DNA of 64,000 nucleotides from Streptomyces minutiscleroticus (GTDB lineage: Bacteria; Actinomycetota; Actinomycetes; Streptomycetales; Streptomycetaceae). Within the stretch, counting starts at the first letter, position 1; each line of letters starts with the position of its first letter. Shown one piece after another: positions 27,617-61,030 of the stretch. The DNA lies in NCBI RefSeq assembly GCF_014650875.1, contig NZ_BMVU01000002.1:124001-188000 (forward strand). The letters run 5' to 3'. The translations under genes and the position numbers were made by a program. The notes beneath the pieces are model-generated. The model saw only the letters and a program-made list of their open reading frames with translations. It searched no databases and was not told where the DNA came from.

Positions 27617-27970
27617 TCACGCCTTCTTCGGACCGCCGTCCCCGGGCGCCTCCGGATGCTGCTCCACGACGGGCTCCGGCCCGCCCTCGCGGCCCGGTCC
27701 GGCGCTCCGGCCCCGGTCGTTCCCGCCTCCGGACGGCGCGCCGTCCCCGCGCCCGGGCATCCGCCGGTGGCTGCGCCCGTGCCGGCCGTGCGCGGCCTCG
27801 TGCCGGGACCGGCCCGCCTCCGAGCCGTCGGTCTCGTAGGCCGCGCACTCGGGGTCGCCACAGGGTCCGGGGCCCCACACGGGCACGTACGCGCCCAGGG
27901 TCTTGCGCCTGGTGACGACCGTCGGGACGGCCCGGCCGCAGGTGGGACAGACGTGCTTGTCAGTGCCCAT
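27617..27970 (-). CDS. Small zinc-ribbon-like hypothetical protein
   Basis: 117 residues. The N-terminal 45 residues hold two cysteine pairs, CPTCGRAV and CGDPECAAYE, spaced to bind one zinc, with TRRKTLGAYVPVWGPGPC between them. The rest is a Gly/Arg/His/Pro-rich disordered tail ending GGPKKA. No homologous function is recognised. It lies downstream of the prenyl synthase on the same strand but is separated from it by a hairpin. Confidence 0.65.
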   Translation of the reverse strand: MGTDKHVCPTCGRAVPTVVTRRKTLGAYVPVWGPGPCGDPECAAYETDGSEAGRSRHEAAHGRHGRSHRRMPGRGDGAPSGGGNDRGRSAGPGREGGPEPVVEQHPEAPGDGGPKKA

Positions 27971-28049
27971 GTCCCCAGAGTAGGGCGGGACACGGGGACC
28001 CGACAGCCGAGCCCGCGGACGGCCCGCGCCGGCGCGGCGGTCAGGGGGA

Positions 28050-28233: not shown

Positions 28234-29409
28234 CTACGCGCTGCGCCGGGTGACGAACTCCGCCAGCGCCAGCAGGCCGCCGGCCGCCTCCGGGTCCGGC
28301 ACCGCCAGGGACAGGTGGTGCAGGGCCCGCGCCATGCGGTCGGCCGCTTGGACCTGCGCCCAGTCGCGGCCTCCCGCCCGCTCGACGGCGAGGACGGTCC
28401 GCTCCAGGTCGCCCTCCGCGTACGGCGCGCCGTACAGCTCGGCCAGTTCGTCGCCGGCCGCGGTGCCGGAGGTGAGCGCGGCCACGACCGGCAGGGACTT
28501 CTTGCGGACCATCAGGTCGGCCCCGGCCGGTTTGCCGGTGCGCCGCGGATCGCCCCAGATGCCGATCACGTCGTCGATGAGCTGGAAGGCGAGCCCGGCC
28601 TCCCGGCCGAACGCGTCCAGCGCCTCGACGTCGTCGTCGCCCGCCCCCGCGTACAGCGCGCCCACCGCGCAGGCGCACCCGAGCAGCGCTCCCGTCTTGG
28701 CCTCCGCCGTGTCCAGGCACTCGTCGAGGGTGACCTCGTCGGGCCTGCGCCGCTCCATGGCGGTGTCGACCTGCTGTCCCGCGCACAGTTCGACGACGCA
28801 GGCGGCGATCCGGGCGGCGGCGGCCCGGGCCTCCGGGTGCGGGTCCTCGGCGAGCATCTGCTGCGCCAGTGCCTGCAGCGCGTCCCCCGCGAGGATCGCG
28901 TCGGCGTCGCCGAACACGCTCCACACGGTGGGCCGGTGTCTGCGGGTGGCGTCCCGGTCCATGACGTCGTCGTGCAGCAGCGTGAAGTTGTGGATCAGCT
29001 CCACCGCCGCCGCGGCCCGAACGGCCGCGCCGTGGCTCCCGCCGAGCGCCCGCGTGGCGGCCAGCACCAGCGCGGGCCGGACGGCCTTCCCCGCGTTGCC
29101 CTCCGCGGGGGTGCCGTCCGCGTGCTCCCAGCCGAAGTGGTACCGGGCGATCCGCCGCAGCGGGGCGGGCAGGGTCGCCACGGCCCTGCGCAGCTCGGGG
29201 TCGACCGACGCCCGGGCCGCTTCGAGGAGACCCTCGGCCTCCTGTTCGTCGAACGGTGCGGGCCGCTCCGTGGGCTTCCTCCCGTCGTCGGTTCCCGGTT
29301 CCCCGCCCGGGTCCCTGGGCCCGGCCGGGGCCCGGCCGTCGACCGGGCCCCGCCTCCGGGCGGCCGGGACCGGGCCGTGCTTCGTCTCCGTCGTCGTGAA
29401 CTCACCCAT
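28234..29409 (-). CDS. Polyprenyl (geranylgeranyl-type) diphosphate synthase with disordered N-terminus
   Basis: 391 residues. The first ~50 are Gly/Pro/Arg/Asp-rich and disordered. Then comes the all-helical trans-isoprenyl synthase core: GKAVRPALVL, first Asp-rich motif DDVMD (about 147-151), RRHRPT, and second motif DDVIGIWGD (about 279-287). It condenses isopentenyl diphosphate with allylic diphosphates; product length is not certain. It lies 114 bases downstream of the encapsulin on the same strand. In family 2B encapsulin loci such enzymes are cargo and a disordered N-terminus directs loading, so this extension is the likely targeting region. GAGGA precedes the ATG. Confidence 0.92.
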   Translation of the reverse strand: MGEFTTTETKHGPVPAARRRGPVDGRAPAGPRDPGGEPGTDDGRKPTERPAPFDEQEAEGLLEAARASVDPELRRAVATLPAPLRRIARYHFGWEHADGTPAEGNAGKAVRPALVLAATRALGGSHGAAVRAAAAVELIHNFTLLHDDVMDRDATRRHRPTVWSVFGDADAILAGDALQALAQQMLAEDPHPEARAAAARIAACVVELCAGQQVDTAMERRRPDEVTLDECLDTAEAKTGALLGCACAVGALYAGAGDDDVEALDAFGREAGLAFQLIDDVIGIWGDPRRTGKPAGADLMVRKKSLPVVAALTSGTAAGDELAELYGAPYAEGDLERTVLAVERAGGRDWAQVQAADRMARALHHLSLAVPDPEAAGGLLALAEFVTRRSA

Positions 29410-29523
29410 GGTGTTCCTCGGAGAGTCGGCGGACGGTGGCGCTTCCGCTGCCGCTGGGCGCATACCCGGTCGGTCTACCCGTCCGGGCCGGAGGGGACAC
29501 GGCGGGCCGGCGCCCGCGGGGCG

Positions 29524-30927
29524 TCACCAACGGCCGATCTCGACGTTCTCGAGGACTCCCAGCGCGTCCGGCACCAGTACGGCGGCCGAGTAGTAGGTCG
29601 TCACGAGGTACGACATGATCGCCTGCTCGCTGATGCCCATGAAGCGGACGGAGAGGCTGGGCTCGATCTCGTCGGGGATGCCCGTCTGGTGCAGGCCGAT
29701 GACCCCCTGGTCGGCCTCTCCCGTTCGCATGCAGATGATCGAGGTGGTCCTGGCGTCGCTCACCGGGATCTTGCTGCACGGGAAGATCGGCACTCCGCGC
29801 CAGGTCGGGATGCGGTTGCCGTTGATGTCGACGGTCTCGGGCACCAGTCCGCGCTTGTTGAGCTCGCGCCCGAACGCGGCGATCGCGCGCGGGTGGGCGA
29901 GGAACAGCTTGGACCCGCGCCGCCTGCTGAGCAGTTCGTCCATGTCGTCGGGGCCCGGCACCCCGTCGTGGGGCTGGATGCGCTGGTCGTACTCGCAGTT
30001 GTGGAGCAGCCCGAACTCGCTGTTGTTGATCAGCTCGTGCTCCTGGCGCTCCTTCAGCGCCTCCACGGTGAGCCGCAACTGCTGTTCCGTCTGGTTCATG
30101 GGCTGGTTGTAGAGGTCGGCCACGCGGGTGTGGACGCGGAGCACGGTCTGGGCGACGCTCAGCTCGTACTGCCGGGGCGCCGACTCGTAGTCGACGAACG
30201 TGCCGGGGATGTCCGGCTCGCCGGCGTGGCCGGCGGACAGGTCGATCGCCTTCTCGCCGTACTTGTTGGTGCGCTGCTGCGGCACCGAGCGCAGGTGCTG
30301 GAAGTGCTCGCGCAGGGCGTCGGAGCGCTCCGCGACCTGCTCGATGTGGGTCCGGGGCAGAGCCAGCACCGTACAGGCGGTGGCGGCCCGGGCCGAGTAC
30401 TCCCAGATGGCCTCGGAGTCGAGGACCGCCTGCTCGCCGAAGTACGCGCCGTCGGCGAGCACCCCGAGGACGGAGTCGTCGCCGTAGGGCCCCGTGCCGA
30501 CCTTCTCGACCCTGCCGTGCGCGAGCAGGAACACCTCGTCGGCCTGGCTGCCGAAGGCGGCCAGCAGTTCGCCCGGGGCGAACTCGCGCTGCTCGCAACG
30601 GGCGGCCAGTTCCTGGAGCACCTCCTCGTCCTCGAAGCCGCGCAGGGCCGGGAGTTCACCCAGCTCGGCGGGGATCACCTCGACACGGTCGCCGGTCTTC
30701 ACGAACGTGACGCGGCCGTCGCCCACCGCGTAGGTGAGCCTCCTGTTGACCCGGTAGGTCCCGCCCTGCACGTTCACCCACGGCAGCATGCGCAGCAGCC
30801 AGCGCGAGCTGATCTCCTGCATCTGCGGCACGGACTTGGTGGTCGTGGCCAGATTCCGCGCGGCGGATGTGCCAAGACTCTTCTGCGGCCGGTCCCCGTC
30901 CGTACGGATCTCTTCGCCTACCGACAT
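29524..30927 (-). CDS. eshB: Family 2B encapsulin shell protein with cyclic-nucleotide-binding domain (EshA/EshB type)
   Basis: 467 residues. An HK97-fold shell protein is interrupted at about residues 90-210 by a Crp-like cyclic-nucleotide-binding domain with phosphate-binding cassette [11 protein letters not shown] and Arg in [13 protein letters not shown]. The flanking N-terminal arm and large C-terminal region ([13 protein letters not shown] ... [20 protein letters not shown] ... [19 protein letters not shown]) match the S. griseus EshA family, reclassified as family 2B encapsulins. It should assemble a nanocompartment enclosing the adjacent prenyl synthase, with the cNMP domain outside. 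GGGAGGGC precedes the ATG. The symbol follows the S. coelicolor paralogue and is tentative. Confidence 0.9.
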
Positions 30928-31222
30928 GAAATGCCCTCCCGATCGTGCATTGAACTGCGCGGACAACACTTCCAGCACGTAGGGTGACAACGCCATTACA
31001 CGAATGAGCGGGAATGAACGCGCGGCGCACTGGGCATTTTGTGGGCACTTTCCGGCGGCGGGCCCGAGGCCGGGGCGGTGCGCGCCGCGGGTCCTGACCA
31101 CTGTCCGCGGGCGGCTCCCCTCCACCGTGCGCACGCCTTGTTTCAGCTTCCACGCGCCCGGTAAAAGGCTGCGGTACGAGGCGGCCGCGTCCGGCGGCCG
31201 GCGCGGCCCGCAAGGAGGCGGC
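30928..31222. promoter_or_regulatory. Divergent encapsulin / amidase control region
   Basis: 295 bases, AT-richer near the encapsulin side (30930-31060) as expected for a promoter, but I could not fit a clear hexamer pair. The amidase ribosome site AAGGAGG is at 31212-31218. Confidence 0.3.
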
Positions 31223-58344: not shown

Positions 58345-59721
58345 CTAGCGCGGCACGGCCCTCAGCAGCAGCCGCTTCGGCCGCAGCGTGATGCCGACCC
58401 GCGTGACGTCCTCGGAGCGCGGCACCTGCTCGAAGCGCCATCTCCGCGCCACCGCCGCGGTGATGAGCGACAACTGGGCCATCGAGAAGTGGTCGCTGGG
58501 GCACTTCCGGTTTCCCACGCTGAAGGGGCTCATGGCGTATTTCGGAACGTCCTGGGCGCGTTCCGGAAGCCATCGGTCGGGGTCGAACTCCAGATTCCTC
58601 TCGTACGACCGCGGATCGCGCTGGATCGCGTACGGGCTGTACACGATGTCGGCCCCGGCGGGGATGCGGTACCCGCCCAGTTCCGTGTCGGTCGTGGCGC
58701 GCCGGGTGAGGATCCATACGGCGGGCCGCACCCGCATCGCCTCGACGACGACGTTGTTCGTGTGCGTCAGCTTCCCGATGTCGTCGAATGCCACCGGCCG
58801 GCCCCCCGCGACCGATTCGACCTCCTCGCTGACCCGCTCGCCGTGCTCCGGGTGCTCGGCGAGCGCGTGCAGGATCCACATGACGGTGGAGGCGACGGTC
58901 TCGCTGCCCGGCGTGACGATGGCGACCACCTGGTCGTGGATCTCCTGCTCGCCGATCGGGTTCCCGTCGTCGTCCTCCGCCTCCAGCAGGGCCGTCAGCA
59001 GGTCGTCCGGCCTCAGCCCCGAGGCCCGGCGCTCGGCGACGATCTCGTCGACGAGCCGGTGCAGATCGGCGAGCGCGCGGTCGAACCGCCGGTTGGCGGG
59101 CAGCGGCAGCCGGTACAGCGGCCCGCAGGAGAGCACCATGCGCCGGTACATCCCGCGGAAGACGGTGGCCAGGGCGACGCTCAGCCGCTCGGCCCGCTCG
59201 TCCATGAAGTCGCCGCGCAGCAGGCAGCGGGCGGTGATGCGCACGGCGACGCGGAACGACTCCGCCGTGCAGTCGACCGTGTCGCCCGGCCGCCAGCGCC
59301 CGGCGAGGGCGTGCGCCTCCTCCTCCATGACCGCCGCGTAGCCGGGTATGGCGTCGAGCCGGAAGGCGGGCTGGATGGTGCGCCGCTGCCTGCGGTGCGT
59401 GGGCCCGTTGTTGGTGGCGACGCCCTGCTTGCCGAGGAGTCCTTCGAGGGCCTCCCAGAGCGGGCCGCCGACGATGTAGTCGGGGCTGGTCAGCAGGGCC
59501 CCGGTGAGAGCGGGCGTGGTGACGGCGTACACCGTCTTGGGGCCGAGGCGCAGGCGGACGACGTCGCCGTGGTCGCGCAGTCCGGACAGGAAGCCCAGGG
59601 GATCTCGCGCCAGTTTCCAGCCGTGGCCGAGCCCGGGCAGCCCGCCCGTCACCGGCGAGGGGGTGCGCGGGGCGGGGGTGCCGGTCGCCGTGACGGGCCG
59701 GGAGGAGGACTCGACGCTCAT
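58345..59721 (-). CDS. cyp170A1: Cytochrome P450 CYP170A1-type (albaflavenone synthase)
   Basis: 458 residues. The haem loop [13 protein letters not shown] supplies the Cys ligand, EAMR is the K-helix ExxR, and [10 protein letters not shown] is the I-helix. It oxidises epi-isozizaene twice to albaflavenols and albaflavenone. CYP170A1 of S. coelicolor is also a moonlighting farnesene synthase with its own Asp-rich motif; the segment [17 protein letters not shown] here resembles such a region. The start overlaps the stop of the terpene synthase gene (ATGA), so expression is coupled. Confidence 0.94.
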
Positions 59722-60800
59722 CGTTCACCTGCCTGGTCGCTGACGTACGGGGGTGTGGAGCGGTCGTCCCAGGAGTCGACCCGGTACCGGCCGGATTCGT
59801 GGTGGAACCAGTACACGGAACTGAACCAGTTCCGCATGTTGCCCAGACAGGCCCGCACGGCGCGGCCCAGTCTTCCTCCGGCCGTGCTTCCGTCGTCGAG
59901 CGCTACGGCGAGGCGTAACACCTCTTTCTCGGCGGCCAGGAATTCGGTGATGCATTTCCCGATCCGGCCGCGCATGTCCGTGACGGCCTCTTCGAGCGTC
60001 ATTCCCTCGTGCCGGACGAGGCTGATGCCGAGATTGTGGAATTCGTCGCCCGCTATCTCCTTCGGGAGCGAGCACAGGTCGTTGTACCAGGCGGCGAAAT
60101 CCTGGCAGAGCAGACCGGCCCGCCGATAGGACGGATCCTTCAGGACCCGGTCCGGCAGTTCGCATTCCGCGCTGGGTTCCAGGAGGTCGAGCCAGATCCA
60201 GTGCGCGAAGGTGTGCCGCCGCAGTTCGAGGTATTCCTCGACGTCCGGCACGACGCCGGTCGTGCGGTTCGCGAACTCGCGGTCGTAGGCCTCGATCACC
60301 GCGTGGAAGTGCCGGGCGAACCGCGCGTTCCAGTCGTCGCCGAGGTAGGAGTACAGCCGCGCCACGCTGTCCGAGAAGCCCGCGACCAGCGGGTCCTCGT
60401 GGTGCAGATGGGAAAGCGGTGCGTCCAGGGCCGCGTGCAGCTCGTCCCTGAGCCGGCTCCAGGCGGCCGGCCGGCCGTGGATCACGTCACGGTCGTGGCG
60501 GTCGTCCCAGACGAAGAACCACGCGCTGTAGTCCGCTATCGCCTGCAGGACGTCGTCGGGCGCGCCTATGTAGTAGCCCGCCATCAGGTCGGTGTAGCAC
60601 AATCCGTCGGCATATGCCTCCACGGTGCCGGACGACATGATCTGTTTTTCCAGGAGCCACGCCCTCGTTTTCTCCTGAAGCCGTGGCCAGTAGGGATGGA
60701 GTCGACGGGGAAACCCGGTCTCGATCACCGGGAGGGAGAGCGCCGGTGGGACTTCGACCGCCGCCTGTGTCGATGTGGTGCCGGATGGGAAAGCTGGCAC
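59718..60800 (-). CDS. epi-Isozizaene synthase (class I sesquiterpene cyclase)
   Basis: 360 residues. The first metal motif WDDRHDRD begins at about residue 99, the same position as Asp99 of S. coelicolor EIZS. The NSE motif is NDLCSLPKE, and the C-terminal RY pair is in [18 protein letters not shown]. It cyclises farnesyl diphosphate to epi-isozizaene, the albaflavenone precursor. GAGGGG lies six bases before GTG 60800; an in-frame TTG at 60806 is less likely. Confidence 0.95.
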
Positions 60801-61030
60801 GAACAACCCCTCTCAGCCGCCTGTCGGCGTCACACCCTTCCCTGTGCCGGGCGTGCGCCGTGGTGCGTATCCCCGCACTTCCCATTCAGCACGACAACTG
60901 ACTGTTTGGGGAACAGATTTGCATCGCTCACTACCCCCCAATGCTGACTACTTCCCCTTGCGCGACTGCTTCCGGATCGTTCGGACCCGGTCGATGCGCA
61001 CAAAGGATCGACTGACTGATGCGCACACGA
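60801..61030 (-). promoter_or_regulatory. Upstream region of the albaflavenone operon
   Basis: Of the 306 bases between the terpene synthase and def, this part has lower GC than its surroundings (60890-61020), as expected of a promoter. I could not fit a confident hexamer pair. A short GACTGACTGATG run lies near 61010-61022. Confidence 0.35.

Follow-up and report, generated by a model that had tools for sequence, protein, structure and literature searches.

Encapsulin operons in which a shell gene stands beside a prenyl synthase gene form an already known class, of which about 900 have been published (PMC8346489). In the passages of that paper available to us, the encapsulin-linked synthases are described as carrying a disordered N-terminus of 50-100 residues, for which those passages report no motif, and GPTGLGTSAAR is given as the motif of terpene-cyclase cargo. 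For Family 2B shells, the available passages of PMC12407261 place the CNB-type domain over the two-fold pores, report that it was shown to bind no cyclic nucleotide, and propose a luminal loop as a candidate cargo site. They also describe how, in Streptomyces lydicus, the shell protein Enc2 (RRRK at diagnostic motif 1) self-assembles alone and Enc1 (TVWK) does not. As for S. coelicolor, excerpts of two further papers describe eshB (SCO5249) as a putative cyclic-nucleotide-binding protein that is up-regulated in development (PMC3878966) and list SCO5250 among the isoprenoid genes (PMC7494193).

We analysed a stretch of 64,000 nucleotides from Streptomyces minutiscleroticus (hereafter, the window), which encodes a Family 2B shell protein and an adjacent prenyl synthase with a disordered N-terminus. 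The pair is an ordinary and widespread instance of the class. Its use lies in two testable corrections, one on the N-terminus of the synthase and the other on the phosphate-binding cassette of the inserted domain.

A Family 2B shell gene followed by a prenyl synthase gene

The features of the pair are listed in Table 1. GGGAGG precedes the ATG of the shell gene and GAGGA that of the synthase gene, which lies downstream of the former after a gap of exactly 114 bases (29523-29410) in which we found no terminator-like site. A scan for sigma-70 promoters gave no match, which says little for Streptomyces. The region upstream of the shell gene (window 30928-31087) is strongly conserved in 103 dereplicated synthase-linked loci, including a block around CGTGTAAT, and is probably the promoter region.

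Table 1. Features of the shell-synthase pair, in window coordinates.
Feature	Coordinates	Strand	Evidence
Shell gene, Family 2B encapsulin, 467 aa	29524..30927	(-)	HK97 fold with CNB-like domain inserted in the E-loop; NF041163, PF19307, PF00027, solved shells
Shell N-arm, residues 17-32, near-invariant	30832..30879	(-)	Mean entropy 0.14 bits (170 dereplicated synthase-linked shells), lowest among the regions compared
CNB-like insertion, shell residues about 89-210, degenerate phosphate-binding cassette	30298..30663	(-)	PF00027 at residues 114-201; Crp and protein kinase G alignments; conservation
Synthase gene, polyprenyl (probably geranylgeranyl) diphosphate synthase, 391 aa, candidate cargo	28234..29409	(-)	NF041169, PF00348, fold 3nf2
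Disordered N-terminal extension of the synthase, residues 1-52: tip MGEFTTTETKHGPVP, then Gly/Pro/Arg/Asp-rich linker	29254..29409	(-)	Low pLDDT, first helix at 53; tip conserved in relatives

Among the NCBI curated models, the shell protein matches NF041163 ('family 2B encapsulin nanocompartment shell protein') with 780.8 bits for a cut-off of 400, and residues 60-390 of the synthase match NF041169 ('family 2 encapsulin nanocompartment cargo protein polyprenyl transferase') with 483.1 bits for a cut-off of 450. Pfam identifies on the shell both PF19307 (SrpI-like shell, residues 216-466, 459.4 bits) and PF00027 (cNMP, 61.7 bits). The model of Family 2A shells scores 363.4, less than its cut-off of 380, and an internal CNB-fold domain is what sets 2B apart from 2A. 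The solved Family 2B shells 9bhu, 9bje, and 9bix align over nearly the whole protein, and the best solved-shell match (residues 13-467, E 3.4e-197) excludes chance. A structure model of the full shell was poor (pTM 0.37) and was left out of the analysis. In the AlphaFold2 model of the synthase, residues 1-50 have block-mean pLDDT values of 34-55, the first helix starts at residue 53, and most blocks of the core exceed 95. Together with the ORF coordinates and the conserved pairing described below, these results bear out the earlier note where it read the region as an EshA-type Family 2B shell with an inserted cNMP-type domain and, 114 bases downstream, a prenyl synthase that is a linked candidate cargo and whose disordered first 50 residues or so lie outside the catalytic fold.

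By analogy with its solved relatives, the shell protein would form a closed icosahedral particle of 60 copies (T = 1). At diagnostic motif 1 it reads SRRRG, which is like Enc2 of S. lydicus and unlike Enc1.

The pair is frequent in Streptomyces and several of its neighbours recur

The synthase exceeds the cut-off of the cargo model in 227 of the 295 Streptomyces genomes searched and in 145 of the 197 genomes drawn from the order, whereas no control genome passed the cut-off of either the synthase or the Family 2B shell. The latter was above its cut-off in 59 of 61 Streptomyces genomes. A single such shell was found in the genome of the window, and a two-component shell was rejected for this genome on that count.

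We then considered 80 relatives of the synthase in loci from named genomes, keeping in mind that loci overlap between searches (e.g., L116 and L135 are one place, as are L139 and L191). In 77 of them the shell gene directly precedes the synthase gene on the same strand, one of these loci being cut by the end of a contig. Two of the others are at contig ends (L026 and L073), and the last (L081) has a shell remnant. In this locus of Streptomyces sp. ODS25 (L081:4706-4918), the shell gene is reduced to its start and end, its centre is gone, and the synthase frame is open to the stop, making it a natural case of a synthase without an adjoining shell.

Around the pair, we scanned ten ORFs at 24.9-34.5 kb, the pair included. 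The neighbours encode an amidase, a PLP enzyme, a Na/H exchanger, a nickel SOD and its protease, a CGNR regulator, a methyltransferase, and a short ORF without match; no terpenoid gene was found among these scanned ORFs. Many of these neighbours recur in the 80 relatives, of which 61 have loci that span at least 11,000 bases: all 61 contain the PLP enzyme, 59 the exchanger, 52 the amidase, 49 the short ORF, and 16 SodN. The frame that follows the synthase (window 27617-28045, minus strand) has a zinc-ribbon-like stretch, CPTCGRA. It matches nothing in Pfam or NCBIfam and is present in 65 of the 80 loci. Farther away, 28 kb from the pair, a terpene synthase (59718-60806) and a cytochrome P450 (58345-59721) are encoded on the minus strand. 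We take this second pair (58345-60806) to resemble the epi-isozizaene/albaflavenone pair of S. coelicolor.

An intact synthase core behind a variable linker and a conserved tip

The fold of the synthase core is closest to 3nf2 (TM 0.81 by query length, 44% identity), and the core matches PF00348. Its catalytic motifs are intact: in an alignment of 53 synthases, neither D147-D148-x-x-D151 (the first Asp-rich motif) nor D279-D280-x-x-G283 varies, and Phe142, five residues ahead of the first Asp-rich motif, is likewise invariant. An aromatic residue at five positions before the first Asp-rich motif is a mark of C20 synthases. Once enclosed, the synthase would condense IPP with an allylic diphosphate, and GGPP would be the likeliest product.

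The extension that precedes this core has about 52 residues in the window, which is within the published range. More than 18 residues precede the core in 100 of the 169 shell-linked synthases, with starts picked by a rule that assigned too short a start to some synthases of the long clade in which no ribosome site was recognised. Among these 100, 60 start with M[GAS]E (52 after dereplication), including the synthase of the window. The extensions of the 52 dereplicated proteins vary between 20 and 175 residues. Conservation is concentrated at the tip, with Thr6 in 87%, Glu7 in 75%, Phe4 in 67%, and Met5 in 65% of them, and no position past residue 12 exceeds 35%. A pattern for the residues around 6-10 matched 33 of the 52 rows, whereas 500 shuffles gave 0.27 matching rows on average and never more than 2. 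This control favours the pattern, which was written after viewing the sequences and applied to rows already chosen for their M[GAS]E start. In the window's clade, conservation is thus higher in the tip peptide than in the linker that follows, and the tip is the likely route by which cargo would be loaded in this clade. The third positions of codons 3-6 of the tip are nearly fixed in the same 52 synthases, so RNA-level selection or shared descent may account for the conservation of the tip.

A sub-clade of shell-linked synthases almost lacks the N-terminus

In the tree of 172 synthases, the 40 rows that cannot exceed 18 N-terminal residues, when start codons are counted only after the shell stop or within 12 bases before it, are all in one clade of 58 (SH-aLRT 87). 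The sister clade of 107 (SH-aLRT 85) contains the synthase of the window and none of the 40; both support values are under the 95 mark. The clade of 58 also includes rows that are possibly longer, such as L100 (58 aa) and L133 (27 aa). In L116, L137, L138, L139, L140, and L141, an in-frame stop lies 9-14 codons before the synthase core and the shell gene still adjoins. The 60 loci classed as short-N out of 179 are not a frequency, since the set took in loci chosen for their short open frames and the 60 include some loci of the long clade with 19-30 residues.

Judging from these sequences, shell-linked synthases do not all have the long disordered N-terminus. A related sub-clade, in which shell and synthase genes follow the same order, does without residues 1-50, and the N-terminus would thus be no general requirement, unless those synthases load otherwise or not at all. 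Published as a mark of encapsulin-linked synthases, the long N-terminus is missing in many of them, and natural long/short pairs therefore offer a direct test of synthase loading. Both the tip peptide and the short-N sub-clade may be undescribed, as far as the available passages of the literature go (including PMC12407261, PMC8346489, PMC3878966, PMC7494193, PMC3610822, and PMC13170358).

We searched the shell for positions that best separate the partners of long-N and short-N synthases. The luminal loop was absent from the top 25, and no co-varying dock was found on this account; the best positions (e.g., 292, 196, 131, 312, and 197) are in the inserted domain and elsewhere. The N-arm of the shell reads LGTSAAR, resembling GPTGLGTSAAR, and cargo may imitate the N-arm of the shell itself.

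A probable compartment and its candidate cargo

Taken as a whole, the locus probably encodes a Family 2B nanocompartment with a trans-prenyl diphosphate synthase as its cargo, loaded by the tip peptide, and with a CNB-like domain that is a lid or binds another ligand. Uptake of the synthase would take place as the shell assembles, and the short tip peptide of the flexible N-terminus would be the most likely route. We put forward a more detailed reading only tentatively, and think it rather unlikely to be right in all its parts. In it, a tip peptide (M-G/A/S-E-F-x-T-E-x-K-Q-like) on a freely varying linker would load the synthase, one Streptomyces sub-clade would have lost the linker together with most of the signal and would dock another way, and the inserted domain, with its invariant Trp where an Arg is expected, would sense a ligand that is not a cyclic nucleotide.

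Enclosure of the synthase can be doubted. It might be co-transcribed with the shell and remain cytosolic or docked outside, its N-terminus having another purpose or none. This would fit the sub-clade almost without N-terminus beside the shell, the one synthase (L081) that is apparently maintained with no more than a shell remnant upstream, and the available literature passages, which contain no experiment on the loading of the synthase. However, the near-universal pairing of shell and synthase is harder to account for in this way, as is a dedicated tip peptide placed before a variable linker as cargo would have it, and we regard a synthase left outside as an unlikely, if serious, alternative to the tip-loaded compartment.

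It is quite improbable that products of genes located elsewhere, for instance the terpene cyclases of the window genome, belong to the true cargo and that the adjacent synthase is just one client among them. There is one shell above the cut-off in this genome, yet a 2-MIB-synthase-like cyclase also exceeds a cargo cut-off (433.1 vs 400), and a geosmin-synthase-like protein scores 1110.6, below its cut-off of 1200. However, the former lacks the GPTGLGT motif in its N-terminus, and the latter has only GPAGLGTAG, placed between its domains, with no C-terminal copy. We rejected these cyclases as cargo, the expected motif being missing or partial. The gene of the 2-MIB-synthase-like cyclase (L245:4173-5384, contig C3 of the window genome) adjoins a methyltransferase and has no Family 2B shell near it. 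That of the geosmin-synthase-like protein is at L246:3359-5575 (contig C47), and the only shell of the genome is the synthase-linked one.

The inserted domain and cyclic nucleotides

The earlier note had also regarded the phosphate-binding cassette of the inserted domain (FGEQAVL and the Arg of SARAAT) as intact and proposed that a cyclic nucleotide gates the compartment. Neither proposal stands, given the register of the cassette and, for gating, the absence of binding stated in the available passages of PMC12407261. Arg180, the Arg of SARAAT, is 5-6 residues past the canonical Arg column in three alignments. When HMMER is used to align the domain with a solved cGMP-dependent protein kinase, the canonical Arg falls between Ala173 and Ile174, and Arg180 is opposite a later Lys. 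When MAFFT and hhalign are used with 12 Streptomyces Crp proteins, the Crp Arg falls on Ile174, Trp175 is an extra residue, and Arg180 is opposite a Thr. A cassette with a five-residue insertion, in which Arg180 would be the phosphate-binding residue, was rejected by the Crp alignment.

The nucleotide site is degenerate across the synthase-linked shells. At the canonical Arg column (174), Arg is present in 4 of the 170 dereplicated shells, the others having mostly Ile, Val, or Thr, and any Arg or Lys at 172-177 is found in 5. Trp175 is present in all 170 and Arg180 in 169 (175 of 176 before dereplication), which suggests that these residues have a role, perhaps structural, perhaps in binding another ligand. 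The canonical Glu of FGE is kept in the window, and of the 176 synthase-linked shells, 71 have Glu and 105 have Asp at this position; the long/short split of these shells in the residue counts was set by synthase identity (74%) and not by the tree. Position 180 in 42 other shells is Arg (22), Thr (12), or Lys (8).

Gating by cAMP or cGMP on the inserted domain is very unlikely, for even if the PF00027 match, the FGE motif of the window, and the near-constant Arg180 speak for it, and even if the Thr of 9bhu at the place of Arg180 means that a negative binding result on that shell need not transfer, Arg180 is out of register, the canonical column is almost devoid of Arg, Trp175 is invariant, Glu alternates with Asp, and binding is reported as absent in Family 2B (PMC12407261, in the passages available). 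The Pfam name alone is thus no ground for assuming gating, the phosphate-binding Arg column being non-basic in nearly all the synthase-linked shells examined. If placed as in the solved relatives, the CNB-like domains would be outside, over the two-fold pores, where they would act as a structural lid or bind some ligand other than cAMP or cGMP.

Comparison with known systems

The locus is closest to the synthase-linked Family 2B encapsulins (NF041163 and NF041169; PMC8346489, in the passages available), with which it shares the shell type, the inserted domain, the adjacent synthase, and the disorder of the synthase N-terminus, and from which no class-defining difference separates it. The polyprenyl synthetase 3nf2 of S. 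coelicolor shares the fold of the catalytic core, and its match begins at residue 59 of the window synthase, leaving the N-terminus uncovered. The window shell gene is presumably the counterpart of eshB (SCO5249), given that sodN and the terpene synthase/P450 pair are in the same region in the gene order of S. coelicolor. Both would encode proteins of the Esh kind, likened here by gene order. Among the solved shells, 9bhu matches residues 13-467 of the window shell with 658.9 bits and has a Thr at the place of Arg180. We take it to be the 2-MIB shell of S. griseus, whose linked cargo would be a terpene cyclase. The shells 9bje and 9bix were assigned to S. lydicus by a motif match. According to the available passages of PMC12407261, the S. 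lydicus shell, which is of the same family, has two components, whereas the window genome has one shell above the cut-off, and the S. lydicus cargo is a putative xylulose kinase system, whereas the candidate cargo in the window is a prenyl synthase.
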